IMG/VR virus record: IMGVR_UViG_3300009790_000022
Span: 1-43,827 of that record
Strand: one strand, 5' to 3'
DNA: 43,827 nt
From: a virus
Shown here: positions 18,615 through 43,827 of the stretch, one piece after another
Position numbering within the stretch: the first letter of the stretch is position 1
How the letters are laid out: every line of letters starts with the position of its first letter
The notes under the pieces: generated by a model
The model's input: the letters and a program-made list of their open reading frames with translations, nothing else
Databases searched by the model: none
Told to the model about the DNA's origin: nothing
Position numbers and translations under genes: made by a program

Positions 18615-18668
18615 ATAACCAGTCCGTATCTTTTAAGAAAGATAAGAACTTTATTTTTATAAAACAAC

Positions 18669-19180: not shown

Positions 19181-19181
19181 T

Positions 19182-21115: not shown

Positions 21116-21133
21116 ATAAGTTGGTTTCTGCCG

Positions 21134-24398: not shown

Positions 24399-24401
24399 TC
24401 A

Positions 24402-25430: not shown

Positions 25431-25432
25431 TG

Positions 25433-26089: not shown

Positions 26090-26106
26090 TTCTGTTTATG
26101 TTTATA

Positions 26107-26114
26107 TATAAATA
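26107..26114 (-). promoter_or_regulatory. Late-promoter-like box TATTTATA
   Basis: The minus strand reads ACATATTTATATATAAACAT, 17 bases before ATG 26089. It is a near copy of the element at 947-954, including flanking bases. Confidence 0.5.
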
Positions 26115-26128
26115 TGTTAGTATTTCAT

Positions 26129-27112: not shown

Positions 27113-27114
27113 TT

Positions 27115-30021: not shown

Positions 30022-30359
30022 TATTCATCAGGTTGTTGTAAATCTATAATCTCTTGATTAGCTTCTAATAACTGTTGTCTAAGTTGAGATATTTCATCCA
30101 ATAAAGGTTGTATATCTTCTGTGTCTTTATCAAACTCTAATAATGCTCCACTAGTTTTTATAAGGTATTCATGGGAGTTAGTTTCTCCATTCAATGGTAT
30201 TTCATTAAAAAGATTTTCATATTCCACAAAGAAATCCTCTACCGTAAACTCTGCTTCAGCAGCGTCCGGTTGACCAAACGTCTTAAAAGATCTATCAATA
30301 ACTTTATCTAAATCTTTCTTGTCGAGTTGTGTTTTGGATATTCTTAGTTCATTAGCCAT
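30021..30359 (-). CDS. Small acidic protein in the baseplate operon
   Basis: 112 aa. L-R-I-S-K-T-Q-L-D-K-K-D-L-D-K-V-I-D-R-S-F near the N-terminus, acidic middle, and a C-terminal coiled coil L-L-D-E-I-S-Q-L-R-Q-Q-L-L-E-A-N. It overlaps the 348-aa gene by eight bases and the 968-aa gene by one (TAATG), so it is tightly coupled to both. A small connector or chaperone for the neighbouring large proteins is possible; not recognised. Confidence 0.6.
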   Translation of the reverse strand: MANELRISKTQLDKKDLDKVIDRSFKTFGQPDAAEAEFTVEDFFVEYENLFNEIPLNGETNSHEYLIKTSGALLEFDKDTEDIQPLLDEISQLRQQLLEANQEIIDLQQPDE

Positions 30360-31398
30360 GTCTAGTTACCTTGAATATATTTTTATTATCTATAACGATA
30401 GTACTATCATTTACAGTAGTTTTAACTAACAATCTATAATATCTTTCTGGTTGAAAAGATTCCATATAGATGTCAAAATAGCTACTTGTATTATCTGCGC
30501 TTATCTTAGTATGGTTACTAAAATCTACTATCATTTCTCCACTATATTCGTCTTTAACCCCCCAATATGATAGTTGAGGAAGTTTATATTCAGTTAGGTA
30601 AATAGAAGAAGTTGTAAATGTTCTGGTAGGATACTTTGGTCTAGCTGATAATCTAAATCTTATAGAGTCAGTATCAGCATATTTCTCCTTATGGTTTTTT
30701 ATACCAATAGTTGCTATATCAGTAGACAGCTCAGTTAATGAGCTACTATAACTGGAATCATCCCATTTGAACTCTAAATAAGGAGGAAAGATAGTATTTG
30801 TATCTGATCCGAAGTATTTAAGGTTTATAGATGATGTAGTGTTATTTTCGTTATCAGGTGAAAGTTTTAACATTATACCTGCATTTCCGTATGAACTAGA
30901 GTAATGACTATGTACTATGCTTGTTACGTCTATATCTAAGTCTTGACTAAGTTTAACACTTTTAGAAACAAAAGCTAAAGAAGATGATATATAATCACCT
31001 CCAAGTGAAGTCCAAGCATCTTGTTGTGCTCCTTTATACTTCCAACTACATCCTGTTTTATTAAGAGGTAAGTCGTCTCTTTTACCTAATCCAGTAGTCC
31101 AAGATCCATTTACTGCTAATGCGTGTAATATGTAATCTTCTGGAAGAGACCCTGCTTCTGCTAGTGAAAGGTGTAAACTACCAGTCCATTGACCTGTTAC
31201 TTTAGAGTTAATAGTAGACTGTATTTGATTAGTATAAAACTGAATAAGTGATCTTTGTACTCTATGAGTATCATCTATGTCTTTATACGTACCAACCTCT
31301 AGTATTTCGTCTAAACCAGCATTGCCATATATATTGCTAATGTTTGGTTCTGACCAAATAGTAGTATCTTTTTCGGGATATATTCTAAATATTGCCAT
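30352..31398 (-). CDS. DNRLRE-like virion structural protein
   Basis: 348 aa. M-A-I-F-R-I-Y-P-E-K-D-T-T-I-W-S opens a beta-sandwich with I-Y-G-N-A-G-L-D-E-I-L-E-V-G and R-S-L-I-Q-F, typical of DNRLRE-type domains, which in other contexts bind carbohydrate or form surface fibres. A second half (P-T-R-T-F-T-T-S-S-I-Y-L-T-E-Y-K-L-P) is also beta-rich. It follows gp6 by a one-base overlap, so it is likely a baseplate or fibre-attachment protein. The DNRLRE match is by pattern only. Confidence 0.6.
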   Translation of the reverse strand: MAIFRIYPEKDTTIWSEPNISNIYGNAGLDEILEVGTYKDIDDTHRVQRSLIQFYTNQIQSTINSKVTGQWTGSLHLSLAEAGSLPEDYILHALAVNGSWTTGLGKRDDLPLNKTGCSWKYKGAQQDAWTSLGGDYISSSLAFVSKSVKLSQDLDIDVTSIVHSHYSSSYGNAGIMLKLSPDNENNTTSSINLKYFGSDTNTIFPPYLEFKWDDSSYSSSLTELSTDIATIGIKNHKEKYADTDSIRFRLSARPKYPTRTFTTSSIYLTEYKLPQLSYWGVKDEYSGEMIVDFSNHTKISADNTSSYFDIYMESFQPERYYRLLVKTTVNDSTIVIDNKNIFKVTRHG

Positions 31399-33215
31399 TA
31401 TAATGATGTTACTCTTCCTTCAATATCAGTATCAGGATATTTTACTTCAAATATACTAGGATCAAAAGAAGGATAAACTACATTCTTCTTTGTTGCTCCT
31501 TTTACGTCATATGCATATTGAGAGTAGTTTCCTCCAACTTTGTTAACTACTTCTATACTCTCTACTGTTTGTACTCCTTTAACATTATCTAATAATGTGT
31601 ATGCTGGTGAAAGATTAATAGGTTGATTAATAGACCAGTTTCTTATATCAAAAAATGTTTTTAGTTTTCTATTACATTCTAATAATACATCTCTAGTGAT
31701 AGCACCAGGTAGTGTTACTATTTCAAACTTTACACCAATATTTACCACAAATGCATCTAAGATGTTTACTCCATCTGCAATCATAGTAAACTGAGATAGA
31801 TATGTTTTTAGGTTTTCTTTAAGACTATACGGCGTAGATGTTAGATTACCATTATTATTATATGCTAATGTATAAAGTGATATAGCTAATGGATTAGTAC
31901 TAAGTAGACTATTACCCTGATTAGGAGGTGTAGTTTGAGTTACATATACTTTTGCTATAGTACCAAATCTAGATGGTAATGATAATGCTCTTACTGCATA
32001 ATCTTGTAATGTTACTGTTCTTTGCTGTTCAGCAAAAGATTTTAAACTATTCTGTCTCAGCTCTTCTGTTGAATCTCCATCTTTACCGCCAAAAGCTGCT
32101 TCTGGGTTATTAAATGCTAGGGTAGCTTGATAAGTTGTATCAGTAGCTGTAGATGTAGCAGTAGTAATAGAGTTAATAGTATTAGAAGGAACATTAGCAG
32201 ATGTACCTCCTCCAGTCAAATATCTTATAGTTAATGTTACGTTAGTAGGAGCTAGTCCATAAGTACTTGTAAATAAGAAGTTAGATGGATCATATGCTTT
32301 ATATAGTTCTCCTACTCCAGTACCATCAGTTATACTGTTGTCAGTTCTAAAAGGATCAGGTAAGAATGAATCTTCGTTACCTCCTGATATACCAGAACCG
32401 AACTGTATTTGTAAAACTCCTTTAGATGTAAATCTAGTTACAAATCTTCTTGGTACTTTCTTTACTTTAAGTTTATTAGGAGCAAGATTAGAATCAGTAC
32501 TAGTATTACTTTCTTCGTTAAATACTGTATCTTGACCTAAAAATGGTACTTCAGTCCATGTTTTACCATCACTGTCAACAATATCTAATACTCTAATAAT
32601 GTTTTCATCTTCTATATTAATGGTAGCAAACTTTTCTGCAGTAGTATAAGTCTCTGTAGTTGATTGAATAGTACCAGAAAATGCTTTAACTGACTTAGAT
32701 AAAGTAAACTCTGCTGGTTTTCCGTTTTCATCTACTGAGTATATTTTAATATCAGTTGGGTCGAATGAGCTACTAAATGTAAAATCTACTGGTTTGTTAG
32801 TTAAGAAGGTAGCTCTACCATCAGTGTTAGATGTTATAACTGCTGAATCATTAACTTTTAATGCTTGATTCCAGTTAGGAGTAAATCCTGCTGTAGCAGC
32901 TACGTTTTGAGTTACAGTTAATGTAGTTTCGGCTGGTGTGCTTACTTTTGGTTTATAACCCATCATATATGCTAATGAATATAGATTAGATGGATTTTTT
33001 GCATGTTGTAAGAATGTCTCTTGAAGTTGAGTATCTTGATAAAAAGATAGTACATCACCTACATAGGCTGCCATCTCAATAAACATAAGTCCAGGTGATG
33101 ATGGACTAAAGTCATTGTATGCATCGGGAAAGTAGTTTTTAGCATACTCTATAAGCTGGTTCTTAAAATCACCAAACTCTTTATTAATATACTTTATGTC
33201 TCTTGTTTCAGCCAT
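31398..33215 (-). CDS. 6: Baseplate wedge subunit (T4 gp6/gpJ-like)
   Basis: 605 aa. The N-terminus has F-P-D-A-Y-N-D-F-S-P-S-S-P-G-L-M-F-I-E-M-A-A-Y-V-G-D. The centre (about 350-410) has the baseplate-J pattern N-P-E-A-A-F-G-G-K-D-G-D-S-T-E-E-L-R, then S-L-P-S-R-F-G-T-I-A-K-V-Y-V-T. gp6 dimers join wedges into the inner baseplate ring and trigger sheath contraction. T4 gp6 is 660 aa. It lies directly after gp25, in T4-like order, with two bases between. Confidence 0.9.
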   Translation of the reverse strand: MAETRDIKYINKEFGDFKNQLIEYAKNYFPDAYNDFSPSSPGLMFIEMAAYVGDVLSFYQDTQLQETFLQHAKNPSNLYSLAYMMGYKPKVSTPAETTLTVTQNVAATAGFTPNWNQALKVNDSAVITSNTDGRATFLTNKPVDFTFSSSFDPTDIKIYSVDENGKPAEFTLSKSVKAFSGTIQSTTETYTTAEKFATINIEDENIIRVLDIVDSDGKTWTEVPFLGQDTVFNEESNTSTDSNLAPNKLKVKKVPRRFVTRFTSKGVLQIQFGSGISGGNEDSFLPDPFRTDNSITDGTGVGELYKAYDPSNFLFTSTYGLAPTNVTLTIRYLTGGGTSANVPSNTINSITTATSTATDTTYQATLAFNNPEAAFGGKDGDSTEELRQNSLKSFAEQQRTVTLQDYAVRALSLPSRFGTIAKVYVTQTTPPNQGNSLLSTNPLAISLYTLAYNNNGNLTSTPYSLKENLKTYLSQFTMIADGVNILDAFVVNIGVKFEIVTLPGAITRDVLLECNRKLKTFFDIRNWSINQPINLSPAYTLLDNVKGVQTVESIEVVNKVGGNYSQYAYDVKGATKKNVVYPSFDPSIFEVKYPDTDIEGRVTSL

Positions 33216-33217
33216 TT

Positions 33218-33625
33218 TTAATCAAAGTTTATTACTACTTCATCTTCAATATTAGTATCAGATACTTTATATTTTAATGCAAACTGAATAGTTCCTGTGT
33301 CAGGATCACCTACAGTGTTTATATCTATAGGTATTATTCTTGGAAAAAATATACTAAGGTCTTCTCTTACTAAAGAATCTACTCTTCTAATAGAATCTTG
33401 ATTAAGATTTTCAAATAATAAGTTTTGTAGTTCGTTACCAAATAGAGGATTTAAATATCTCTCTCCTCTTGCTGTAAGAAAATAGTTAATAAGGTTAGTC
33501 TTTATAGCATCTTTAGTTTGAAATGTCTGATTAAAGACAGCTTTACCTGAGAAAGGTAGTGATACTCCAACCGCTTTACGAGGTTGTAAATCTAACGGAT
33601 CTATTTTTTTTACTTCTGTTGGCAT
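33218..33625 (-). CDS. 25: Baseplate wedge subunit (T4 gp25-like)
   Basis: 135 aa, close to T4 gp25 (132 aa). The segment L-P-F-S-G-K-A-V-F-N-Q-T-F-Q-T-K-D-A-I-K and L-I-N-Y-F-L-T-A-R-G-E-R-Y-L-N-P-L-F-G-N is characteristic of the gp25/gpW family, which nucleates sheath assembly on the baseplate. The C-terminus is beta-rich (I-Q-F-A-L-K-Y-K-V). It overlaps the preceding gene by one base. Confidence 0.92.
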   Translation of the reverse strand: MPTEVKKIDPLDLQPRKAVGVSLPFSGKAVFNQTFQTKDAIKTNLINYFLTARGERYLNPLFGNELQNLLFENLNQDSIRRVDSLVREDLSIFFPRIIPIDINTVGDPDTGTIQFALKYKVSDTNIEDEVVINFD

Positions 33626-34047
33626 TATAATGTACCTGCTCTATTTTTATCTTTTTTCATTGATGCATCTAATATAGATTTTGCTTTTCCTACAAAATCA
33701 AGTTGTGTGATATCGATACCCGGCATAGGACCTTTATGTTCTTTTGTCATTTGGGTAGACATCATAGATGCAAAGTTTGGTTTTTGTACGCCTTGACCTA
33801 CAAAGTTAGCTGCTTCTTCTCCTGTCATATCAGCTTTAGTAGCATTTAACATTTCATCAAGTGTTGCACTTTTACCTACAGACCATTTTTTTGGTTGACC
33901 TTTAGGTACTTCTGCATAAGTTTGAGATACTTGTTTAGTAGGAGTACTTGCTATTTTAACTGCTTCAGTTAACATTTCTTGTAACTCCTCCTTAACAGCT
34001 GCTCTTACTTCTTCTCGTATTATCTTTCTTAGTTGATCGAGTTTCAT
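33625..34047 (-). CDS. Leader-bearing protein in the baseplate operon
   Basis: 140 aa. M-K-L-D-Q-L-R-K-I-I-R-E before E, then further L-Q-E-M and L-T-E-A: an amphipathic leader with three I/L-x-E sites. The rest is a Thr/Lys/Met-rich chain. Despite the head-type leader it sits between tail/baseplate genes. Its start lies only three bases after a late-type box (34051-34058), so the mRNA from that box, if it is a promoter, would be leaderless. Head packaging is inferred; a baseplate role is the alternative. Confidence 0.55.
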   Translation of the reverse strand: MKLDQLRKIIREEVRAAVKEELQEMLTEAVKIASTPTKQVSQTYAEVPKGQPKKWSVGKSATLDEMLNATKADMTGEEAANFVGQGVQKPNFASMMSTQMTKEHKGPMPGIDITQLDFVGKAKSILDASMKKDKNRAGTL

Positions 34048-34050
34048 ATA

Positions 34051-34058
34051 TATAAATA
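34051..34058 (-). promoter_or_regulatory. TATTTATA box three bases from a start codon
   Basis: The minus strand reads CTATTTATATATATG, where the last three bases are the start codon of the 34047 gene. It is either a promoter giving a leaderless mRNA or a translation-linked element. Confidence 0.45.
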
Positions 34059-34064
34059 GTTTAG

Positions 34065-35204
34065 TTATGGAAGTTGATTATCTAATCTAAATTTTACTTC
34101 GTCTAAAAGTACATTTACATCAGAACTAAATGAGGATTGCCCTTTTAACACGGCTACTCCTTCATCTATTGTTTTAGCTACTGCAAATCTTTTTGGTGCA
34201 ATAGCAGGTGAGTTAGGATCTTTTTGTATCTCTAACAAATATTTTATACCGTTAGCAGCAATATAGTTAAAATCTAAATCTTCTCCACTATCATCTTGCT
34301 TACTATCGTTTATTTTATCTAATAGTTTTTTTATACTATTTTTAGCATCATCACTTATATTACTATCTTGTAACTTATTTAACCCATCAGCAAGTGCGGC
34401 TAAAGCAGCATCTGGGTTATCTGTATCAAAATCATTTTCATTAAATCTACCATCAGTACCAGATCCTGTTCCTGCTATTAAACAGTTATCAGTATCACCA
34501 GTTTTTATTTGCTCTTCAGTGCATAGTGTTTTTGGATTAGTAATACCGTTTTCGGTAAGATTACCGTTTCCTATAAAAGTAGGACCTAGAGTAGAAAATA
34601 TTAAAACACCATCTTCATCTAATAATCCTGCTTCATCTAACTCTTCTTCTGATATGTTACCGTTACTAAGTTCATCTTCTAACTGTTTTGATATAACACA
34701 TGATGTAACAGCGTTATCAGCTCTACTAACTATATCTAAAGTTGCTGATAGAGAAGAAGAAGGTGCGTCTAAAACTGCTTCTATAGTACCAATAATTTCT
34801 TCTATCTGTACTACAAACTCTCTTATCTTAACTAATAAATCTGAATATTTAGTTGTTATTAATAATGGTAGACCGAAACCAGGTGGTACAGATTGTGGTA
34901 TAGGGAGTGATGTAATAACCTTTATTATTGCTTTTAACCCTTTCACAGGAGGTTTAAGTTTTTTAGGTAGTTTTTTAAACTTAGATAATCTTCTATCTAT
35001 TCCTCCTAAAGCATTACTTATACCTGCAGCTTGATTTTGAAGTCTTCCTAACTTATCTGAAGAAGGACATCCTCCACTTCTTAAACTATTAGCTATGTTT
35101 ATAGTTTGACTAATAGCATTAGCTGATATTTTACCTTGCAGTTTACCAACTATCTTGGCAATAGCTGCTCCCATTTTCTGTTCTTTGAGATGTACGTATG
35201 CCAT
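34065..35204 (-). CDS. Hypothetical structural protein of the baseplate region
   Basis: 379 aa. The N-terminus M-A-Y-V-H-L-K-E-Q-K-M-G-A-A-I-A-K-I-V-G-K is amphipathic. A basic helix (R-R-L-S-K-F-K-K-L-P-K-K-L-K-P-P) is followed by hydrophobic segments P-S-V-P-P-G-F-G-L-P-L-L-I-T-like and then a helical, Ser/Asp/Asn-rich C-terminus. It overlaps the gp5-like gene by one base. The long helices with a hydrophobic middle suggest a tail or baseplate hub accessory protein; no match recognised. Confidence 0.6.
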   Translation of the reverse strand: MAYVHLKEQKMGAAIAKIVGKLQGKISANAISQTINIANSLRSGGCPSSDKLGRLQNQAAGISNALGGIDRRLSKFKKLPKKLKPPVKGLKAIIKVITSLPIPQSVPPGFGLPLLITTKYSDLLVKIREFVVQIEEIIGTIEAVLDAPSSSLSATLDIVSRADNAVTSCVISKQLEDELSNGNISEEELDEAGLLDEDGVLIFSTLGPTFIGNGNLTENGITNPKTLCTEEQIKTGDTDNCLIAGTGSGTDGRFNENDFDTDNPDAALAALADGLNKLQDSNISDDAKNSIKKLLDKINDSKQDDSGEDLDFNYIAANGIKYLLEIQKDPNSPAIAPKRFAVAKTIDEGVAVLKGQSSFSSDVNVLLDEVKFRLDNQLP

Positions 35205-36361
35205 TATTCAGTAAATACTTTTTTAGAGTGTAGTTGAGGTAGTTTATTTATTAAGATTTCTAACAACGGTAGTACAGTATTACCAGTAACAATAAGTTTA
35301 GCTATTGCAGCTGGTGGTGCTGGTGGTAGTTTAGCCATCGTATCAGCTAAAGTTTTGACTTGTTTTGTTAAGTCATTTAACCATGTTGTAGAAGTCTTTC
35401 CTTTTAACACAGGTTCATGTTCTCTTTTAAGAGCTGCTGCTCCTAAATAAATCTTTTTAGCATCTAATCCTACATATTCTTCTCCATCTAGTGATACTGT
35501 TTTAGCGTTTAGCCCAATACCTTCTTTAGCGGATATTAAAGTATGTTCATCATATGCGTTAAAATATAATCTTCCAGAGTTAATGATTACTTGAGAACCT
35601 TTAAACTTATCTGCTTTTTCAGGTTCATCTTTCCAACTCTCTCTTTTTTCATTTGCTTGTTCTAACTCTACCGTATGATCAGAAGTTAAGTAAATAGACG
35701 ATTTATCTTCATTAATATCTTCTAAAACAGATTCATCTCCTGATTCTGCTTCTTTTTGACCATTACGTATAATAGTAAGTGGTTCCCCATTATTACTATC
35801 ATCTATCCATATATTAGAATCGTACTTAGTACCGGTCATTCTTATGGATTGACCATGTCTTCCTTCGATAGATATATCACCTGGAAATAGTTGTAGAGGG
35901 TTTACTTTATCTGTTTCTTCAAAATAATCTCCAAAATCAGCTTCACTTTGTTGGTCTTCAAACTGACCGGTATCAGGATAAGCATTATGATGAGGATGGT
36001 TCCACATTGGTACTACTTGCCTCCAATATGTTTTAGTAGAGTTAGGTCCAGTACTTCTTCTTTCGGATGATAGTGATACTATCTCCACTACTTCACTTTT
36101 AAGAGGTACTCTTTTTATATTTACATCAGAACAGAATGCAAATCTTAGTTGAGTGTCATCTTCTTCTTTTTTAGCTCCTGATAAAGATCTAAAGAACACT
36201 CCATTTATAGCTTGAGAGCCTCCATAGTCATCAAACTTAGGGTGAAAGGAATCAGTTATTACATCTACAACACGAGCAAAAGTACTAGATGGTCCACTAC
36301 CACCACCGCTTCCAGCTGCAGAAGAACCTCTACCCTGCATAAAACCGGTACTAAATGCCAT
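35204..36361 (-). CDS. 5: Baseplate hub/spike protein (T4 gp5-like, no lysozyme domain)
   Basis: 385 aa. A Gly/Ser-rich start is followed by an OB-fold domain (about 25-150: F-A-R-V-V-D-V-I-T-D, S-E-V-V-E-I-V-S-L-S, W-N-H-P-H-H-N-A-Y-P-D) and then a beta-rich region with repeating short strands (V-I-I-N-S-G-R-L-Y-F-N-A, T-L-I-S-A-K-E-G-I-G-L-N-A) that could form the needle beta-helix. Unlike T4 gp5 (575 aa) there is no E-x-D/T lysozyme domain. It forms the puncturing spike of the contractile tail. It overlaps the previous gene by 11 bases. Confidence 0.8.
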   Translation of the reverse strand: MAFSTGFMQGRGSSAAGSGGGSGPSSTFARVVDVITDSFHPKFDDYGGSQAINGVFFRSLSGAKKEEDDTQLRFAFCSDVNIKRVPLKSEVVEIVSLSSERRSTGPNSTKTYWRQVVPMWNHPHHNAYPDTGQFEDQQSEADFGDYFEETDKVNPLQLFPGDISIEGRHGQSIRMTGTKYDSNIWIDDSNNGEPLTIIRNGQKEAESGDESVLEDINEDKSSIYLTSDHTVELEQANEKRESWKDEPEKADKFKGSQVIINSGRLYFNAYDEHTLISAKEGIGLNAKTVSLDGEEYVGLDAKKIYLGAAALKREHEPVLKGKTSTTWLNDLTKQVKTLADTMAKLPPAPPAAIAKLIVTGNTVLPLLEILINKLPQLHSKKVFTE

Positions 36362-36719
36362 CTTCCTGTTCTTCTTCTTTTGTTTCTATTTCGTTTTTAA
36401 CTTCTTCAGATTCTTCTAATAAATCTTGTAGTTCTGAAAAGTCAAACATATCTGATCCGTCTCCTTTAGCATTAGCTGTTTCTATTCTTTGAACAATAGT
36501 AGCTAGTTTAATAAGAGCTTCATCATTTTTAACTCCTATCTCCATGTACTCTTTTATCATAGGAACGATTAAAGTAGCGTCTCCTATGTTTTCTATAAGA
36601 GGTTTAAGTTCTCCTATTAATGCTTTTACTTGAGCTCTAGTTGTAGTAGAGTTATCATGTATTTCTGAAAAGAGATCAGATAGAGTTTTTCCGTTAAATA
36701 TTTCTTTATCTAAACCCAT
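36351..36719 (-). CDS. Small helical protein upstream of the hub gene
   Basis: 122 aa, helical and acidic: S-D-L-F-S-E-I-H-D-N-S-T-T-T-R-A-Q-V-K-A-L-I-G-E-L, then I-V-P-M-I-K-E-Y-M-E-I-G-V-K-N-D-E-A-L and a Glu-rich end. I recall similar small proteins next to the hub gene in T4-like marine phages. A late-type box at 36732-36739 precedes it, so it starts the baseplate unit. It overlaps the hub gene by 11 bases. Function unknown. Confidence 0.65.
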   Translation of the reverse strand: MGLDKEIFNGKTLSDLFSEIHDNSTTTRAQVKALIGELKPLIENIGDATLIVPMIKEYMEIGVKNDEALIKLATIVQRIETANAKGDGSDMFDFSELQDLLEESEEVKNEIETKEEEQEDGI

Positions 36720-36731
36720 AATAAGTTTTAT

Positions 36732-36739
36732 TATAAATA
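36732..36739 (-). promoter_or_regulatory. Late-promoter-like box TATTTATA
   Basis: The minus strand reads CTATTTATAATAAAACTT, 12 bases before the ATG at 36719, in the gap after the sigma-factor gene. Confidence 0.5.
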
Positions 36740-36742
36740 GAG

Positions 36743-37447
36743 TTACTGAGGATTATTTGAAATAAGACCTTCGTCGTAGTAGTATTGATACTTTTTAATC
36801 CAGTGTTCTTTAAGAACGGAAATAACTTTTGTTAAATGAGGAGTCTCACAATCAGTCATTTCTCTTATATAAATGTATAGGGCTTTCTTTTTGAATAAAT
36901 CTAAATCGTGTCTAGTTTTAAAAATAGTTAAAACTGCATCTGCAATCTGTTTATCTTGTACCTTATGAAATAGTTCATCTAACTCTTCATATACTTCATT
37001 TATCCAATCATCTAACAGGTTAGCTAAAGTAACTCCTGTAGTTGATTCGTAACTTATAGTATTATCATAAGATTCCTCTATATCTGAGAAAGAACCAATC
37101 TGTTTTAGTCTCTTATAGTTCTTATTGTTGTAGTTTATCAACCATCTCTTAACTATAGTACCGAAATAAGAATATGCTTTTGCTCCATTTGTTGGATCAA
37201 ACTTCATAATCTTCTCTTCTAGTAAAACAGAAACAATCTCATGTTTGAGATCTTCTATTCTTTCAACATCTGTGTAGTAAAACTTAAAAGTATGTATAAT
37301 ATTCTCTGCTAACTTATAAAAAGGTAGGTAGATGTGGTCTGTAAATATTTTAGCTCTGTAATCTGAGTCGGTAGAGTTGTTATACTTAACTATATAGTCT
37401 TCTGTCTCTTTTGTAAAGTAGTTAGCTTTGGATTTTTTCCTTGGCAT
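36743..37447 (-). CDS. 55: Late-transcription sigma factor (T4 gp55-like)
   Basis: 234 aa. The central part has L-K-H-E-I-V-S-V-L-L-E-E-K and K-F-D-P-T-N-G-A-K-A-Y-S-Y-F-G-T-I-V-K-R-W-L (about 80-115), the sigma region-2 pattern of T4 gp55 relatives (in T4, F-D-P-E-K-S-N-N-P-F-A-Y-F). Such proteins direct host RNA polymerase to late promoters that consist only of a -10 element, which agrees with the TATTTATA boxes in this window. Longer than T4 gp55 (185 aa). It overlaps the upstream membrane-protein gene by 26 bases. Confidence 0.8.
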   Translation of the reverse strand: MPRKKSKANYFTKETEDYIVKYNNSTDSDYRAKIFTDHIYLPFYKLAENIIHTFKFYYTDVERIEDLKHEIVSVLLEEKIMKFDPTNGAKAYSYFGTIVKRWLINYNNKNYKRLKQIGSFSDIEESYDNTISYESTTGVTLANLLDDWINEVYEELDELFHKVQDKQIADAVLTIFKTRHDLDLFKKKALYIYIREMTDCETPHLTKVISVLKEHWIKKYQYYYDEGLISNNPQ

Positions 37448-37742: not shown

Positions 37743-38477
37743 TTATAGATTTTTTAACATATTACTAAGTCCTTGTGATGCATTTACACGTTTACCTGTA
37801 GAGGTTTTTGTTTTTTGTGTTTTCGCCATAGTATTACCACCGTTCCTCTTCCAAATATCATATTCAACCTTGGAAGCAAGGAAGTCGGCACTGTGAAGTA
37901 CACTTACTATTGAAGTTTTCTGTCTAGAACTCTCTTGATAACTAAAAAAGTAGGCTTCATTAGCTTTATCAAACACTCCATCGTGTAATCTTATACCTAA
38001 CCACTCTTTTTGACTTACCTTTATCCCGAACTTCTGTAGTATGTACAGTGATCTATCGGGAATAAGCATAAAGTCTAAGTCTGAGTTGTAGGTATACATC
38101 TCTGATAGTTTATCCTGACGCCATTTATCGGTCTGAGGTTGGTAGTTTTCTTTATCTCCATCACCTAGTTTACCTAAATCATGGAATAAAGCGGCAAAGA
38201 CAAGTTCTTCTTCGGTGTAATCTACTGTTCCACCCATCTCTTGATATAACCTAGACTGTTTCACCGCATATTCCACAACTCTATTAACATGATCGACATA
38301 ACCACCTGCGAAAGCATTATGGTGCCATGATTTACCACTGGCAGGAGCCATTATGTAAGTTTCCTCCATGTGAGAAAGAAGTTTCTTCACTGAGTCTTTA
38401 CGGTCTCCTATGTAAGTATCTACTATTTTAAGATGCTTTTCGTAATTTTTTTGTATTGTTTCGGCCGATAATGACAT
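37743..38477 (-). CDS. HD-domain phosphohydrolase
   Basis: 244 aa. H-H-N-A-F-A-G-G-Y-V-D-H (52-63) supplies the first histidines, and F-H-D-L-G-K-L-G-D-G-D (98-108) contains the H-D pair (H99, D100) of the HD superfamily; a later D-F-L-A (about 208) fits the last ligand. These metal-dependent enzymes remove phosphates from nucleotides or act on RNA, DNA or signalling nucleotides. The substrate is not predictable. It begins the long minus-strand array after a 120-base AT-rich gap. Confidence 0.75.
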   Translation of the reverse strand: MSLSAETIQKNYEKHLKIVDTYIGDRKDSVKKLLSHMEETYIMAPASGKSWHHNAFAGGYVDHVNRVVEYAVKQSRLYQEMGGTVDYTEEELVFAALFHDLGKLGDGDKENYQPQTDKWRQDKLSEMYTYNSDLDFMLIPDRSLYILQKFGIKVSQKEWLGIRLHDGVFDKANEAYFFSYQESSRQKTSIVSVLHSADFLASKVEYDIWKRNGGNTMAKTQKTKTSTGKRVNASQGLSNMLKNL

Positions 38478-38597
38478 ATTAGATTAATTTTATTTATTAT
38501 TTATATATATTTATATACTTATATATTATCTTTTATATATCTATATATATTTTTATATAATATAAATTAAGATAATGATTATTTTTCAAAGAATCAA
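38478..38597. other. AT-rich intergenic region upstream of the HD-hydrolase gene
   Basis: About 120 bases with almost no G or C, made of overlapping TATATAAATA-like runs. Minus-strand TATAAATA occurs near 38500-38520. It probably contains the promoter of the long operon and the 3' end of the lipoprotein unit, but no single promoter or terminator can be picked with confidence. Confidence 0.4.
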
Positions 38598-39194
38598 CTA
38601 TTCTACAATAAATTTTATAAAAAGTTCCTTTTCTTTGTAGTTTATACCGGCATCCCAAAAGATTACCGCTTTAACATCTATAGTATCCCCTTTCATTTCG
38701 GGAGGAAAAGGTCCAACTATACGTTTGCCGTAAAGAGTATTAGATTCTCCCTTCTTAGATAAGTTAACTCTACTAGACTGTACTACTGGAATAATATCAT
38801 AACCTACATCTATAGTAGTATCCGTATAAAAGTTAGCTTGAGCAACAGGAGTTTCATTGTACCACCAATAAGGATCGGTAGCATCTGCATAGACATCTAT
38901 AGAAAAACGTGGAAAATACTCTCCATTCCAATCTAAATCTATATGATAATAACCATTACTATCTAGATTTCCTGGTAACTCTAATGAAGCATCACATGAT
39001 CCATCATAACATACTTGAGGAATATCATCTTTACTACATGAAGCAAACATAGCTAGCATGAGAACTAATAAACCTATACCTATTATAGATTCTTCTCCGT
39101 TAGCATAAACATAGGAAGTGATTTGACGTAGCATCCATACTACTAAATAAACTAAAACGACGGTGAGAACACCGAAAAGAAAACTTGTAAACAT
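38598..39194 (-). CDS. Putative lipoprotein with extra N-terminal membrane segment
   Basis: 198 aa. A first hydrophobic segment (about 5-22) is followed by a second (about 37-51) that ends in a lipobox, M-F-A-S-C-S-K-D-D with the modifiable Cys at 53, a hallmark Bacteroidota lipoprotein start. The mature part is beta-rich (Y-Y-H-I-D-L-D-W-N-G-E-Y-F-P-R-F-S-I). The double segment is odd: either a membrane-anchored protein or a non-canonical signal. A host-type promoter (39216-39250) drives it. A role at the cell surface, such as exclusion of other phages, is possible but unproved. Confidence 0.6.
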   Translation of the reverse strand: MFTSFLFGVLTVVLVYLVVWMLRQITSYVYANGEESIIGIGLLVLMLAMFASCSKDDIPQVCYDGSCDASLELPGNLDSNGYYHIDLDWNGEYFPRFSIDVYADATDPYWWYNETPVAQANFYTDTTIDVGYDIIPVVQSSRVNLSKKGESNTLYGKRIVGPFPPEMKGDTIDVKAVIFWDAGINYKEKELFIKFIVE

Positions 39195-39215
39195 AACCTT
39201 GATTTTTATATACTA

Positions 39216-39250
39216 TAAATATAAGAAAAAAAAATCGGGGAGGCAACTGT
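39216..39250 (-). promoter_or_regulatory. Host-type promoter for the lipoprotein gene
   Basis: Minus strand ACAGTTG (39244-39250), exactly 20 bases, TATATTTA (39216-39223). Same architecture as five other promoters here and as the Bacteroidota consensus. Confidence 0.65.
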
Positions 39251-39257
39251 TTTTTAT

Positions 39258-39293
39258 AAAAAGCTTTAGCTCCTCGCGCAAAACGCGCACGAG
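39258..39293 (-). terminator. Probable rho-independent terminator
   Basis: After the 39305 gene the minus strand has a GC-rich stem with arms CTCGTGCGCG and GCGCGAG around a TTTT loop, then AGCTAAAGCTTTTT with a T-run. GC content stands out strongly in this AT-rich area. The T-run comes after a second small hairpin, so confidence is moderate. Confidence 0.45.
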
Positions 39294-39304
39294 TTGCACC
39301 GCGA

Positions 39305-39754
39305 TTATATCATCTTAGTTAGCTTCTTAGGCTTATATTCAGCCTTCAGCAATAGATCTATATACTTTTTAATAATAGCACACTTCTCATATTGTTCAAG
39401 TTTCTCGTAATATATCCTCAAATAATCTAAAGAACCTTTAACCTCTCTATTATCGAAAGCCTCTCCTATCTTATAGATCTCATCAAAAGAGGAACTATCT
39501 ATCCTAAGTAAATAACCGAATAGTTTATTGAAGTACTTATATCGTGTTATATTACGTACCTTCTTATAGTGCTGGGGGTATTGCTTCATATACATCATAT
39601 CCATCATGTGGAAGTTTTCAACTCCTCTGAGTACCATACCCATTAACACGAAAGGGTTATTGAGGGCATCCTCCATACCGTGTTCCTTGTAGACTTGCTC
39701 GTCACCTTGCTCAAATATTGAGAATAATGTGTTAGGATCTATTATAGGTTTCAT
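39305..39754 (-). CDS. Small helical protein with UVR-like C-terminal motif
   Basis: 149 aa from ATG 39754; the frame is open to 40069 but a late-type box lies just upstream of 39754 and the extra N-terminal part has no support. Met-rich and helical (H-M-M-D-M-M-Y-M-K-Q-Y). Near the end K-L-E-Q-Y-E-K-C-A-I-I-K-K-Y-I-D-L-L resembles the UVR motif of UvrB/UvrC and of small phage proteins that bind nucleic-acid or protein partners. Function unknown. Confidence 0.55.
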   Translation of the reverse strand: MKPIIDPNTLFSIFEQGDEQVYKEHGMEDALNNPFVLMGMVLRGVENFHMMDMMYMKQYPQHYKKVRNITRYKYFNKLFGYLLRIDSSSFDEIYKIGEAFDNREVKGSLDYLRIYYEKLEQYEKCAIIKKYIDLLLKAEYKPKKLTKMI

Positions 39755-39758
39755 ATAG

Positions 39759-39766
39759 TATAAATA
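39759..39766 (-). promoter_or_regulatory. TATTTATA box four bases from a start codon
   Basis: The minus strand reads CTATTTATACTATATG, the last three bases being the ATG at 39754. As at 34051, the spacing would make the transcript leaderless if this is a promoter. Confidence 0.4.
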
Positions 39767-39851
39767 GTACTTCCTATAAGCTAAAATTTTGTTCGCAAAA
39801 TTCCTACCGTTTTTGTAGATTTTTCCAAAAAAAGTTCTTATATTAAAGTAT

Positions 39852-40013
39852 ATGGTAAAGCTAGATATACAAATAGGTGATACTATCTTAATGGGTAAGT
39901 TCAAGAATAAGAAAGTTAAGATAAAATCTATCGAATATGATGAGTTTGGTATGCCTCTGATTAACGGTAGACCTGGATGTACATTTAGAATGGTTCCTAA
40001 TCCTAGAAAATGA
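39852..40013 (+). CDS. Small conserved-type phage protein (53 aa)
   Basis: Plus strand, divergent from the 39305 gene. It starts M-V-K-L-D-I-Q-I-G-D-T-I-L-M-G-K-F-K-N-K-K-V-K-I and ends F-R-M-V-P-N-P-R-K; beta-rich and basic, with I-G-D-T-I-L-M-G-K-F resembling a small family I recall in many phages. Its TGA overlaps the next ATG (ATGA), showing coupling with the following membrane protein. An SH3-like small fold is possible; function unknown. Confidence 0.7.
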   Translation: MVKLDIQIGDTILMGKFKNKKVKIKSIEYDEFGMPLINGRPGCTFRMVPNPRK

Positions 40014-40195
40014 GTCAAAGTTTTATAATATCGGCAGTTACGTTTATCATAGTTATGGTCATCTTTCACCTCCTAAGAGATGTTATCATAAGAGTAATGG
40101 AAATAGACGTAGATAGTAATAAACTTCAGAAGTATAATAAAAGATGGTTAATAAGTACGGCTATAGGCCTAGTAATACTTTATCTTATATATTAA
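40010..40195 (+). CDS. Small membrane protein (61 aa)
   Basis: Two hydrophobic segments (about 4-21 and 47-60) around a charged middle (D-V-I-I-R-V-M-E-I-D-V-D-S-N-K-L-Q-K-Y-N). Overlaps the 53-aa gene by four bases and precedes a 31-aa hydrophobic peptide gene. Small two-helix membrane proteins of this kind are common in early phage regions; a holin-like role is possible but there is no lysis partner nearby. Confidence 0.6.
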   Translation: MSQSFIISAVTFIIVMVIFHLLRDVIIRVMEIDVDSNKLQKYNKRWLISTAIGLVILYLIY

Positions 40196-40199
40196 ACTA

Positions 40200-40295
40200 A
40201 TGAAAAAGACTAACTGGGGACTAATAATAGTATGGGCTTTTATATTATATTGCCTATATACGTTTTGGAAGATGGTGTGGTTTACCTTTTTTTAG
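40200..40295 (+). CDS. Small hydrophobic peptide (31 aa)
   Basis: M-K-K-T-N-W-G-L-I-I-V-W-A-F-I-L-Y-C-L-Y, then T-F-W-K-M-V-W-F-T-F-F: one membrane helix. It starts four bases after the preceding stop codon, consistent with an operon with the two upstream plus-strand genes. Its 3' end overlaps the end of the convergent minus-strand small gene by 14 bases. Coding status is uncertain because it is short. Confidence 0.45.
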   Translation: MKKTNWGLIIVWAFILYCLYTFWKMVWFTFF

Positions 40296-40374
40296 TCTTA
40301 TCCTGTAAATAACCTACAAGACAGAAGACCATCCATCCTCCGGCTAATGATAATATGATTATGTGTTCATTCAT
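40282..40374 (-). CDS. Small hydrophobic peptide (30 aa)
   Basis: Minus strand, M-N-E-H-I-I-I-L-S-L-A-G-G-W-M-V-F-C-L-V, then G-Y-L-Q-D-K-T-K-K-R: one membrane helix with a basic end. The start overlaps the stop of the 86-aa gene (the ATG lies within GATGAATGA), as in other coupled pairs here. Coding status is moderate; too short for a firm call. Confidence 0.5.
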   Translation of the reverse strand: MNEHIIILSLAGGWMVFCLVGYLQDKTKKR

Positions 40375-40624
40375 CTTTCTTATTATCAAGGGTGAATAAA
40401 GTGTGTATGATCATAGCCACAAGTCCGTGTAGGAAGATCTTAGGTGTACCGATTTCAAATGGTATCTGACCTTGGTAGATTCCGAACATATATAGAAAGC
40501 AGGCAAATACGTTTATACCCACTACCACTTGACCCATTATATTTCTTACTCTATTGTTCCACATACGTTTTAGTATAAGGAAAATAAGTATGAATACACA
40601 TATCTCTATAAGAAAGGCTGTCAT
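40367..40624 (-). CDS. Small multi-pass membrane protein (86 aa)
   Basis: From ATG 40624; the longer frame to 40714 runs through the promoter-like element and is unlikely. M-T-A-F-L-I-E-I-C-V-F-I-L-I-F-L-I-L-K then G-Q-V-V-V-G-I-N-V-F-A-C-F-L-Y-M-F-G-I-Y and K-I-F-L-H-G-L-V-A-M-I-I-H-T-L-F give three membrane segments. Function unknown. It has a TATTTATA box at 40644-40651. Confidence 0.6.
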   Translation of the reverse strand: MTAFLIEICVFILIFLILKRMWNNRVRNIMGQVVVGINVFACFLYMFGIYQGQIPFEIGTPKIFLHGLVAMIIHTLFTLDNKKDE

Positions 40625-40643
40625 AATATCTATCTTTATTATA

Positions 40644-40651
40644 TATAAATA
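40644..40651 (-). promoter_or_regulatory. TATTTATA promoter-like box, near-symmetric
   Basis: The minus strand reads TATATATTTATATATAATAAAG, 19 bases before the ATG at 40624. On the plus strand the same bases read TATAAATA, so it could also start the structured plus-strand RNA to its right. Confidence 0.4.
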
Positions 40652-40683
40652 TATACATATATAAAAACCTATATACCGAAAAT

Positions 40684-40883
40684 TATCAGAGGGAGATTTC
40701 TTAGTAAAGCGCACCCGAGACCCTTACGAGCCCTATAGGGAACGATACCGGCACTGTTATAGCAGTATGAGGTAACTATGACAGAAGCCGGCTATCGACC
40801 TGGCCGAAAGTATGAAAAACGGCCTTGTATATTTTTACTGGAGGTACCTGTGTGGGTTTATTTTATAATAACAAACCCTTTTT
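40684..40883 (+). ncRNA. Candidate structured non-coding RNA
   Basis: A 200-base GC-richer island without a long gene. Strong pairings: CGATACCGGC (40743-40752) with GCCGGcTATCG (40787-40797, one bulged C), continued inward by CTGTTATAG (40754-40762) with CTATGACAG (40776-40784, one G-U), giving a nearly continuous 19-bp helix; and GGCCG/CGGCC (40802-40806 with 40820-40824). CCCTATAGGG lies upstream. A stem and T-run follow at 40854-40883. No known RNA family recognised. A 35-codon frame from 40778 (preceded by GAGGTAA) also runs through it, so a small protein is the alternative. Confidence 0.5.
40854..40883 (+). terminator. Probable rho-independent terminator on the plus strand
   Basis: GGGTTT (40854-40859), a 13-base AT loop and AAACCC (40873-40878), followed by five T. 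It ends the structured region. In the minus direction there is no T-run after it, so it is oriented plus. Confidence 0.5.
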
Positions 40884-40887
40884 AATA

Positions 40888-41178
40888 TTAATCAGCATTT
40901 AACATTATACCATCTTCATTATAATAAACACTATACCCTCCACTACTATCTTTTAATACTAACTCAACAACAACATCTTTATAACTTACTTCATTATTAT
41001 CTTCATCATAAAATATATCATCATCATTAAATACTTTATCTAACTCCTCTCTATCATCAATACTAATAATAATACCTCCATCACATTCATCATATTCATC
41101 TAATAAATTATATCTAACTCCATTATTAAATACAACACTTTCATTTCTATACTCTTTACTTTTTTCTACTTTAAACAT
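40888..41178 (-). CDS. C-less cassette gene 4 (96 aa, unknown)
   Basis: Last gene of the C-less cassette. M-F-K-V-E-K-S-K-E-Y-R-N-E-S-V-V-F onward, an acidic mixed alpha/beta protein (D-D-D-I-F-Y-D-E-D-N-N-E-V-S-Y-K-D-V-V-V-E-L-V-L). Its coding strand contains no C except in the penultimate codon, GCT (C at 40895), which gives the only Ala in all four cassette proteins. Leader TTTAAAAATAAAAAGTATG is shared with its neighbour. It has no own promoter and is probably co-transcribed from 41593. No family recognised. Confidence 0.75.
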   Translation of the reverse strand: MFKVEKSKEYRNESVVFNNGVRYNLLDEYDECDGGIIISIDDREELDKVFNDDDIFYDEDNNEVSYKDVVVELVLKDSSGGYSVYYNEDGIMLNAD

Positions 41179-41194
41179 ACTTTTTATTTTTAAA

Positions 41195-41539
41195 TTAATA
41201 TACTATTTCAAACTTCTTTTCTATCTTATCAATATACTCATCAATATAATCTCCATCAACTAAATAACTATCCTCAATCTTCTTAATATCTTCTCTATTA
41301 CTATCATTTATCTCAATCCACACCTCACTACTCTCATCACTCATACTCAATAATATTATCCCATCACCAACTTCTTTATACATTCCAAACTCATCAATAA
41401 TATATTCCATATCTTCTTCAATACACTCTTTCTTAAAATCTTCATATCTATCCAATATATCTTTCTTATCAATATATCTTCTATCAACTTCAACTTCACC
41501 TCTACTTCCAAAACCAATAAATAAATAATCTTTTTCCAT
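41195..41539 (-). CDS. C-less cassette gene 3 (114 aa, unknown; paralogue of gene 1)
   Basis: M-E-K-D-Y-L-F-I-G-F-G-S-R-G-E-V-E-V onward. It contains no Ala, His, Pro, Gln or Thr. The middle (D-F-K-K-E-C-I-E-E-D-M-E-Y-I-I-D-E-F-G-M-Y) and S-M-S-D-E-S-S-E-V-W-I-E-I-N align with the 149-aa cassette gene (D-W-K-K-E-C-Y-E-D-D-C-E-Y-L-I-D-E-F-G-R-Y and N-M-S-D-D-S-E-E-W-Y-V-E-Y-N), so the two are diverged copies. Strongly acidic. Own promoter at 41562-41593 and the shared A-rich leader. Function unknown. Confidence 0.8.
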   Translation of the reverse strand: MEKDYLFIGFGSRGEVEVDRRYIDKKDILDRYEDFKKECIEEDMEYIIDEFGMYKEVGDGIILLSMSDESSEVWIEINDSNREDIKKIEDSYLVDGDYIDEYIDKIEKKFEIVY

Positions 41540-41561
41540 ACTTTTTATTTTTAAACTTATC

Positions 41562-41593
41562 TAAATATAATACTTTTATTTCTAATAAACAAA
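41562..41593 (-). promoter_or_regulatory. Host-type promoter inside the C-less cassette
   Basis: Minus strand TTTG (41590-41593), exactly 20 bases, TATATTTA (41562-41569), then GATAAGTTT. It uses TTTG rather than CAGTTG, and so stays free of C. Confidence 0.65.
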
Positions 41594-41644
41594 TATTTTA
41601 ATATATATTTTCAAACTATTTCATTTATATTAAAATAATATTAT

Positions 41645-42175
41645 TTATATTACACTCATATCTTTACTTTCTCTAAATCTTTTTCTTTTAATAATCCATC
41701 TTCTTTTATAACCACTTCCACTATCATTAATATTTCTCTTCTCCATTAACCCACTTCTTCTACACCACATCTCAAACCTATCACTATAATCTCTCACTCT
41801 CCATCTACTACTTCTAAAATTATATAATCTACTAAATAAACAATCATCACTAAAATAATTATTTTCAATATCACTTAATAACATTTCATTTTTATCATTA
41901 TAATCTAATATTTCAAATAACTCATTTCTAAATAACTTATCCATATTTTTATTTCCATAAACATCTCTATCACTCACCATTAAAATATTATAACTATCTC
42001 TCCTCATATACATTTTATCAAACTCTATTCTAACTATATCATTACAATCATTAAACTTATCATAATAATCTTTCCATTTTATTCCATAAAATAAACAAAC
42101 ATCATCATTTAAAAACTTATAACTTTCACAAACTTTTTCTAATCTATTAAAAACTTTTTTATTTAAATTTCTCAT
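41645..42175 (-). CDS. C-less cassette gene 2 (176 aa, unknown, basic)
   Basis: The longest cassette protein: M-R-N-L-N-K-K-V-F-N-R-L-E-K-V-C-E-S-Y onward. No Ala, His, Pro, Gln or Thr in 176 residues. The C-terminal 60 residues are very basic (Y-K-R-R-W-I-I-K-R-K-R-F-R-E-S-K), suggesting contact with nucleic acid. An uninterrupted frame this long in A/G/T-only sequence, where stop codons are frequent, is strong evidence that it is translated. Own promoter at 42231-42261. No family recognised. Confidence 0.8.
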   Translation of the reverse strand: MRNLNKKVFNRLEKVCESYKFLNDDVCLFYGIKWKDYYDKFNDCNDIVRIEFDKMYMRRDSYNILMVSDRDVYGNKNMDKLFRNELFEILDYNDKNEMLLSDIENNYFSDDCLFSRLYNFRSSRWRVRDYSDRFEMWCRRSGLMEKRNINDSGSGYKRRWIIKRKRFRESKDMSVI

Positions 42176-42230
42176 ACTTTTTACTTTTTTAAATTAATAT
42201 TAAACTTTTTTTAAACTTTTTAAACTTATA

Positions 42231-42261
42231 TAAATATAATAAAAATATTTCAATTTACAAA
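42231..42261 (-). promoter_or_regulatory. Host-type promoter inside the C-less cassette
   Basis: Minus strand TTTG (42258-42261), 19 bases, TATATTTA (42231-42238), then TATAAGTTT. C-free throughout. Confidence 0.6.
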
Positions 42262-42279
42262 CTTTTTTATTATATATTT

Positions 42280-42729
42280 TTATAAAACTTTTTCACTAAA
42301 ATCATTTAAATATATTTCTAAACACTCTTCTAAAAACATATCTTCTCCTTTACATTTCATTTTACCTCTTTCATATCCTCCTTTAATACATTCAATCAAC
42401 TTCTCATTACCTTTATTATATTCAACATACCATTCTTCACTATCATCACTCATATTCATAACAACAATATTTCTAACTCTATTAATCTCATATCTTCCAA
42501 ACTCATCTATCAAATATTCACAATCATCTTCATAACATTCTTTCTTCCAATCCTCCCACCATACATCAAACTCTTCTTCTTCACTACATAAAATATCATC
42601 AATATCTTCTAACCATCTACTCCCAAACCTCAACTTACAATACCATCTATTATCACTCTTATAATCTCCTTCCTTAAACTTTCCTTTAACTTCTTTTTCT
42701 ACTTTATCTAATTTATCTTTATAATTCAT
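42280..42729 (-). CDS. C-less cassette gene 1 (149 aa, unknown)
   Basis: First gene of the cassette: M-N-Y-K-D-K-L-D-K-V-E-K-E-V-K-G-K-F onward. No Ala, His, Pro, Gln or Thr. Acidic, with seven Cys and many Trp/Tyr. The segment E-D-W-K-K-E-C-Y-E-D-D-C-E-Y-L-I-D-E-F-G aligns with the 114-aa cassette protein. Promoter at 42777-42811; the leader ends AAAAATAAAAAGTATG as in the other three genes. Function unknown. Confidence 0.8.
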   Translation of the reverse strand: MNYKDKLDKVEKEVKGKFKEGDYKSDNRWYCKLRFGSRWLEDIDDILCSEEEEFDVWWEDWKKECYEDDCEYLIDEFGRYEINRVRNIVVMNMSDDSEEWYVEYNKGNEKLIECIKGGYERGKMKCKGEDMFLEECLEIYLNDFSEKVL

Positions 42730-42776
42730 ACTTTTTATTTTTATTATTAAACTTTATTATTTTTTAAAAACTTATA

Positions 42777-42811
42777 TAAATATAAGAATAAAAAAGGGAA
42801 TAAAAAACTGT
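42777..42811 (-). promoter_or_regulatory. Host-type promoter at the upstream edge of the C-less cassette
   Basis: Minus strand ACAGTTT (42805-42811), exactly 20 bases, TATATTTA (42777-42784). The spacer still contains C (for example at 42786), while everything downstream of the -7 box is C-free. The change therefore falls within a few bases of the expected transcription start. Confidence 0.7.
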
Positions 42812-42882
42812 TTTTTAGTTGTTTATTAAAAAAGTTTTTCGTACCTTTAGCAAATGTTTTTAGTTCAACCAGTCATACCGTA

Positions 42883-42952
42883 TTGCACGCTCAAGTACTC
42901 TTGGGCAGGGTGTGGTTTGCAAAAATGTACCCAGGGAACTTCCGGAAGGGTA
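42883..42952 (-). terminator. Structured region with probable terminator after the 42988 gene
   Basis: On the minus strand TACCC (42948-42952) pairs with GGGTA (42928-42932) around an inner TTCCGGAA palindrome and is followed by CATTTTT, a likely intrinsic terminator for the 42988 gene. Further on, TTGCA/TGCAA (42918-42922 with 42883-42887) encloses a CAAG-AGTA-CTTG hairpin (42892-42903). A second inverted repeat, CTATATAG twice, lies at 42964-42982. The whole 258-base gap holds no convincing gene. Confidence 0.5.
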
Positions 42953-42987
42953 TATAGGAGAATCTATATAGAAAGCTATATAGGCAG

Positions 42988-43278
42988 TTAGAAGGCCATT
43001 TCTATATCTAGAAGGGACATTCTATAAGTAGTCTTCTGAGACATCATATCATAAGAGTAAAGAGAAAGACTGGTATTACCTACCTTACTTACATTCATAC
43101 CTCTAAAGCTATTCCAGATACTATAAGTCAAATCTCCACCATAAGAGCTATAGGCTTTTATTTCGTATACATCATCCTTATAGGCAACCTTAATCCTTTC
43201 ATCCGCTTTTAACGCCAATATAGCCGTACGGATGGATGATGCTTTCTTAACTTTATCTGAATAACTAACCTTTTTCAT
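42988..43278 (-). CDS. Small basic protein (96 aa) upstream of the C-less cassette
   Basis: From ATG 43278, chosen because promoter and A-rich leader (TTTAAAAATAAAGGTTATG) precede it; the frame is open to 43332 through the promoter. M-K-K-V-S-Y-S-D-K-V-K-K-A-S-S-I-R-T-A-I-L-A-L-K-A-D-E-R-I then a beta-rich part (V-A-Y-K-D-D-V-Y-E-I-K-A-Y-S-S-Y-G). Ordinary codon and amino-acid use, in sharp contrast with the next genes, although it has the same leader type. Function unknown. Confidence 0.65.
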   Translation of the reverse strand: MKKVSYSDKVKKASSIRTAILALKADERIKVAYKDDVYEIKAYSSYGGDLTYSIWNSFRGMNVSKVGNTSLSLYSYDMMSQKTTYRMSLLDIEMAF

Positions 43279-43301
43279 AACCTTTATTTTTAAATACAAC
43301 A

Positions 43302-43336
43302 TAAATATACGAACTATTTTCCATATATCCAACTGT
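43302..43336 (-). promoter_or_regulatory. Host-type promoter for the 42988 gene
   Basis: Minus strand ACAGTTG (43330-43336), exactly 20 bases, TATATTTA (43302-43309); the start codon is 23 bases downstream of the box. Confidence 0.65.
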
Positions 43337-43445
43337 TTTTACGGTTTTTTTTGGTCTTATATAGAAAAAATAGAAGGGAGGGACAGACAAACCTTACTTA
43401 TCTCATACCTTTCCAACACATCTCTCTATCGTCATTCTATACAAT

Positions 43446-43525
43446 CTCGTTATTTTCATTGCTCGCTCGTTGCTCGTTAAGGGCTCGTGATACACGTTTG
43501 CTCGTAAAAATAGACGTTAGCTCGT
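43446..43525. repeat. Cluster of ACGAGC hexamers
   Basis: On the plus strand GCTCGT occurs at 43465, 43472, 43483, 43500 and 43520, with partial copies (CTCGT, GCTCG) at 43446 and 43461. The spacing widens from 7 to 20 bases. It covers the 3' end of the 43477 gene and the gap after it. It could be a binding array for a regulator or replication protein, or a decayed tandem repeat. Confidence 0.6.
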
Positions 43526-43794
43526 ACATTAGTACCGTCCTTATGGAACTCTCTTTTACTCTCTATCTCTCCTATTGAATCAAGTTTCTTCTTAATAGAG
43601 GTGTTGTCAAAATCATTCCTATCATCAGATACCTTCTTAATAGTTTCCAGAACCGCCATTCCAAATAACATTATTATAAAACATAACATACACACAATAG
43701 CAATATTTGCAGAAGTTTGTTTGGATGGACGATCATAATAATCCCATTCTTTAGTTCTACCTTCTAATAGGTTAGGTGTTTTTTTATCTTTCAT
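43477..43794 (-). CDS. Small single-pass membrane protein (105 aa)
   Basis: M-K-D-K-K-T-P-N-L-L-E-G-R-T-K-E-W-D-Y-Y, a membrane segment at about 31-48 (I-A-I-V-C-M-L-C-F-I-I-M-L-F-G-M-A-V) and a charged C-terminal domain. The last residues fall inside the ACGAGC cluster, so the C-terminus may be altered by repeat expansion. Its promoter lies outside the window. Function unknown. Confidence 0.55.
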   Translation of the reverse strand: MKDKKTPNLLEGRTKEWDYYDRPSKQTSANIAIVCMLCFIIMLFGMAVLETIKKVSDDRNDFDNTSIKKKLDSIGEIESKREFHKDGTNVRANVYFYEQTCITSP

Positions 43795-43827
43795 TCTTAT
43801 TTTGTTAAAAATGCGCGTGGCGACTTG

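Follow-up and report, generated by a model that had tools for sequence, protein, structure and literature searches.

A marine phage genome contains a 1,890-base tract in which genes are written without cytosine, and this exclusion of C covers entire transcripts, is retained in relatives whose sequences have otherwise diverged, and recurs around unrelated proteins. The tract was found in a 43,827-base IMG/VR virus record, the whole of which is called the window here. The plus strand of the tract contains 664 A, 419 C, 0 G, and 807 T. No other G-free run in the window exceeds 88 bp and, with the remaining window as background, log10 P of the 1,890-base run is approximately −131, which bears out a sequence-only reading of this DNA that had placed the run beyond chance. 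Because the plus strand is G-free, the minus-strand genes contain no C, as that reading had stated, and equivalently their template contains no G. Our confidence in the exactness of the observation, and in its conservation, is very high.

Table 1. Positions of the C-free tract, its genes, and associated signals in the window
Feature	Position	Strand	Basis or remark
C-free tract (coding strand); template plus strand without G	40896..42785	-	base count; kept in 8 homologous contigs
First promoter, -7 box TATATTTA	42777..42784	-	last C before tract 2 nt upstream (42786)
Gene P0004, 149 aa, acidic, 0 C	42280..42729	-	relatives in L003 (68%) and L004 (55%)
Promoter-like TTTG-N19-TATATTTA before P0003	42231..42261	-	sequence TTTGTAAATTGAAATA identical in L002, L003, and L004
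Gene P0003, 176 aa, 0 C	41645..42175	-	all relatives (41-77% identity) C-free
Promoter-like TTTG-N20-TATATTTA before P0002	41562..41593	-	sequence
Gene P0002, 114 aa, 0 C	41195..41539	-	P0004 paralogue; relative in L002 (62%)
Gene P0001, 96 aa, one C	40888..41178	-	C in Ala codon near gene end
3' hairpin GGGTTTGTTATTATAAAATAAACCC	40854..40878	-	first paired C's after last gene

The four genes that had been read from the sequence were confirmed, in the order P0004-P0003-P0002-P0001. Those lying wholly within the tract (P0002 to P0004) use 25 codons, including stops, and lack Ala, His, Pro, Gln, and Thr. The absence of these five residues had been predicted for all four proteins and fails for P0001, which extends 8 bases past the tract and whose only C belongs to an Ala codon beside its end. 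Three Bacteroidetes-type promoter-like sites fit the tract by eye, in agreement with the three promoters proposed earlier. However, a sigma-70 scan found sites no more frequently than in shuffles, and the promoter assignments consequently rest on conservation among relatives.

The window carries T4-like portal, terminase, and baseplate genes, and its TerL and portal proteins share 76% and 72% identity, respectively, with those of Flavobacterium phage immuto (NC_055915), a cultured Baltic Sea phage with a 160 kb genome. These similarities indicate that the window derives from an immuto-like T4-superfamily flavophage, whose host is presumed only from a relative. Immuto itself has a nearly C-free gene, gp143 (68330-68686), whose 357 nt include 5 C; the genome as a whole is 15% C. 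Two of the five C's sit in the final two codons, and the C-free stretch begins inside the -7 box TATCTTTA. The product of gp143 shows weak similarity to P0002 (E 2e-4, one comparison), and the recorded immuto isolates all encode the same gp143 protein. No long C-free run was found in Microcystis phage Mel-JY01 (TerL 50% identity).

Searching for further base-lacking stretches and aligning homologs, as the sequence-only reading had suggested, yielded 12 further IMG/VR contigs, from other samples, whose tracts have no or almost no C; together with that of the window, the tracts add up to 8,965 nt. A search with P0003 led to L002 (77% identity) and L003 (76% identity), both of which are C-free across these genes. 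The 80-kb contig L004 has 1,079 C-free bases, and L011, L014, L110, L112, and L113 are additional homologous contigs. Relatives of P0003 still contain 0 C at 41% protein identity. Five tract comparisons, which share sequences and are thus incompletely independent, gave 12, 41, 6, 71, and 90 in-tract nucleotide differences (approximately 220 in total), none of which involves C, whereas 79/188, 63/168, and 71/155 of the flank differences do (37-46%). C is therefore excluded from the tracts while A, G, and T exchange freely.

The cassettes are patchy in distribution and modular in gene content. A P0002-like gene precedes P0003 in L002, a P0001-like gene precedes it in L112, and P0004 precedes it in L003 and L004. 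The C-free rule belongs to the setting of a gene and not to its protein family: a P0001 relative in L004 (~32% identity) that lies outside the tract has 12 C in 312 nt, and a close P0001 relative in L114 (83%) that stands alone has 2 C. Six contigs (L002, L011, L014, L110, L112, and L113) are cut within the C-free tract, with L011 and L014 cut at the contig ends, and upstream gene content varies between cassettes, which suggests variation or assembly trouble at the tract. The cut contigs are also what could be said for a sequencing or conversion artefact. We give that explanation almost no weight, as 12 other metagenome samples show the same rule next to normal flanks, and isolates of a cultured phage, immuto, nearly keep it.

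Comparison of codons indicates that the cassette genes encode genuine proteins subject to purifying selection. Among codons that differ at one position, 21-50% of the differences are synonymous, compared with 12-15% expected without selection, the L116/L118 and L002/L003 pairs forming the low end of this range. In addition, stop-creating changes, which make up 8-10% of possible changes, are absent among the cassette-gene differences. Conserved proteins can evidently be made from 15 amino acids. Searches of the cassette proteins with Pfam, PHROG, and PADLOC returned no usable family, and no match was obtained among 50,697 phage records when P0001, P0003, P0004, and the protein of L116 served as tblastn queries. 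The structure prediction for P0003 has a pLDDT of 71 with insignificant winged-helix matches, and its C-terminal half may, by this weak prediction, be winged-helix-like. The model of the P0004 family is poor (pLDDT 57).

IMG/VR was also scanned with a pattern that is independent of gene identity, TATATT-N(17-47)-AAAAGTATG and then a C-free stretch of 110 bases. It should be noted that this pattern is anchored on the promoter and start context and misses genes with other contexts. It retrieved seven of the nine known genes having that start context, with no other match in the sequences collected by then. Eight IMG/VR contigs matched, of which five were known and three were new (L116, L118, and L120). 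L116 and L118 have a common protein of 123-126 aa that is encoded with 0 C and is unrelated to the cassette proteins of the window, and L120 encodes a third unrelated protein, of 74 aa and also with 0 C. The same pattern matched two C-poor MAGs among 84,980 bacterial and archaeal genomes; no gene lies at either match, and both appear chance-like. The start context AAAAGTATG is common to the C-free genes of the window, L002, L004, L112, L116, L118, and L120, and ordinary neighboring genes in L114 have the start context AAAACGGTTATG, which contains C. The unrelated C-free genes of L118 (4012-4499) and L120 (5330-5604) are each followed directly by the same gene (MNKKEI..), as though exchanged at a single site.

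With high confidence, the constrained unit is the transcript (equivalently, the G-free template strand) and not the codons. At eight of the nine visible starts, the last C falls in the -7 box or a few nt away, the exception being L114, where it lies ~30 nt from the -7 box. L110 has two C-free runs with nothing but CTCCC between them, and this interruption directly precedes the second gene's -7 box. The 5' UTRs of the C-free genes have 2 C in ~560 nt, both within -7 boxes, and the 3' UTRs have 0 C in ~525 nt (L120 excluded). By comparison, C makes up 11% of the 5' UTRs and 13% of the 3' UTRs of ordinary genes in these phages. The first C at the 3' end of P0003-type loci falls in a hairpin arm; in the window, the C of one Ala codon comes before it. 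Almost every C in the closing hairpins is paired, and most of these hairpins have no following T run. They are very stable and may serve either as terminators or as protection for a processed 3' end. Because the UTRs are C-free too, the constraint acts on the transcript and not on codons or tRNAs. Independence from the tRNAs for C-containing codons, which the sequence-only reading had listed as a possible benefit, would account for the five missing amino acids, yet it has no bearing on UTRs and intergenic DNA that are likewise C-free, and we regard it as very improbable.

The persistence of C-lessness in relatives amid sequence change, together with its recurrence in unrelated proteins, upholds the earlier proposal that the strict rule is kept by selection. 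A mutational origin was considered as well. A deaminase acting on the displaced non-template strand of transcribed genes could strip C faster than C arises, and such an enzyme would work from promoter to terminator and on one strand only. However, neighboring genes with similar promoters retain C. C content is normal or high in neighbors of the C-free genes, both in the window and in the relative G012; in G012, the small genes surrounding the C-free one use C more than any others on the contig (C3/Y3 0.32-0.36). Moreover, A and G, and not T alone, replace C in the tract, and 0 C across several thousand sites would require an extreme rate. The strand-specific deaminase raised by the earlier reading is thus disfavored by the C-rich neighbors in G012 and is, in our judgment, improbable; regional mutation bias is disfavored for the same reason. 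The tract is richer in A, G, and T than the ordinary coding DNA of the window, and this composition and the G012 neighbors favor selection over mutation as far as sequence comparison can indicate. General C depletion of early genes was rejected as a cause: third-position C in small-gene blocks is mildly depleted in immuto (64-76 kb) and G001 (20-28 kb), and the trend is reversed in G012, where it is enriched (76-88 kb).

What such selection may act on can be narrowed. An mRNA cannot do without A, U, and G, which its start and stop codons require, so C is the only base that can be dropped from it entirely. Most of these transcripts tolerate no C, and the cost must therefore attach to single C's. 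A cost of this kind fits an RNase that cuts at unpaired C, chain termination through CTP or a lack of CTP, or a block at each template G. In the explanation that we propose, a small, swappable set of accessory and probably early phage genes is written as messages of A, G, and U, with mRNA free of C from approximately the start site to the closing hairpin. In some hosts or at some stages of infection, a postulated agent would act on each C in mRNA, and the C-free genes would have to stay expressible during this attack, most likely to counter it. In one version, the agent would be an RNase cutting at unpaired C. In another, it would be a CTP shortage or a poisoned form of CTP such as ddhCTP, a chain terminator made by viperins. 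Transcription with no CTP and an RNase that needs C were both among the causes suggested by the sequence-only reading. Because C first appears base-paired, the RNase version is slightly preferred; this argument is weak, since C is present in every G-C hairpin. ddhCTP may be a poor substrate for host RNA polymerase, which would speak against the CTP-poison version.

We place about even confidence in the view that accessory, probably early genes are kept expressible while an agent acts on RNA C or on CTP. A further claim, that selected genes in three-letter RNA escape, or are made despite, a C-directed cellular attack (RNase or CTP poisoning), is advanced tentatively, at a little under even confidence. 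Evasion by exclusion of a base over whole transcripts would serve several unrelated genes. We infer both the early timing and the counter-defence role of the cassette genes; small, swappable, and patchily spread genes are typical of counter-defence. The P0001-type genes and immuto gp143 carry 1-5 C, which counts against the explanation proposed here.

General properties of RNA or transcription might also disfavor C, namely escape from Rho, little RNA structure, or an R-loop by an origin. Rho prefers C-containing RNA, which would suit the first of these, and a conserved possible-origin element lies beside the cassette in several phages, which would suit the last. However, Rho, RNA structure, and R-loops all respond to many bases jointly, and single C's would be tolerated. 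The suggestion of an mRNA with almost no structure, made in the sequence-only reading, leaves the zero tolerance for C unexplained, and very stable hairpins close the runs. As for an origin-linked R-loop, searches near the C-free genes of L116, L118, and L120 did not find the element. We therefore hold explanations of this general type to be improbable.

A G-free template, a view that the sequence-only reading had not raised, offers another route to the same pattern. It would stay transcribable where modified (7-deazaguanine), excised, or damaged G would halt RNA polymerase, and it would explain the strand asymmetry and the promoter-located start equally well. Six of six near-complete relatives (immuto, G008, G009, G010, G011, and G019) encode FolE, QueD, QueE, QueC, QueF, and the DNA guanine transglycosylase DpdA, and guanine in the DNA of this phage group is probably modified to a 7-deazaguanine, judging from these genes. 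The pathway genes of immuto lie at 18607-37015; the cassette contigs stop short of the dpdA region, and dpdA is presumed to be present there. Several points stand against a template rule, which we consider unlikely, though a serious candidate. Five of these six pathway-bearing genomes lack a C-free gene, other genes with the same promoter type have G in the template, and replacement of G by 7-deazaguanine in phages is reported as only partial, at ~0.02% to 30% of G (PMC6884629). The phages with 7-deazaguanine DNA treated there resemble the window's group in that all near-complete genomes of the latter have the DpdA/Que pathway, but the part of that source covered here describes no G-free or C-free genes, and most pathway-bearing relatives of the window lack them.

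The sequence-only reading knew of no described counterpart, and we likewise found no earlier description of C-less or cytosine-free phage transcripts in the open literature (subscription papers lay outside our coverage). The nearest precedent is the mild avoidance of ACA in RNA phages facing MazF, with a mean relative frequency of 0.83 (PMC12151602). There, too, phage RNA sheds sequences that a cellular RNase would cut; however, a three-base site is mildly depleted in that case, whereas here a whole base is missing from complete transcripts of selected genes of DNA phages. C-less and G-less cassettes used in vitro likewise give a transcript that lacks one base and can be made without that NTP, but they are laboratory constructs, unlike the present natural protein-coding genes with their own promoters. 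Natural genes lacking one base all the way from start site to closing hairpin would represent a novel type of sequence constraint. This constraint points to an agent acting on single RNA C's, on CTP, or on template G, and C-free transcripts provide a simple search rule for phage genes that work under such attack. Immuto, through gp143, provides a cultured phage for testing.

Lastly, the conserved non-coding element mentioned above lies at 40615-40800 in the window, 7015-7195 in L004, and 205-375 in L011, and 47 distinct sequences of it were found in total. An Rfam search of window positions 38000-43827 gave no match. The element adjoins or neighbors the cassette and is found too in relatives without a cassette. 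It consists of TGATNTCA-like repeats with ~11-bp spacing, followed by TTCCCTAA and an AT-rich TATATATTTATATAT stretch, and could be a replication origin, an operator, or an RNA gene.
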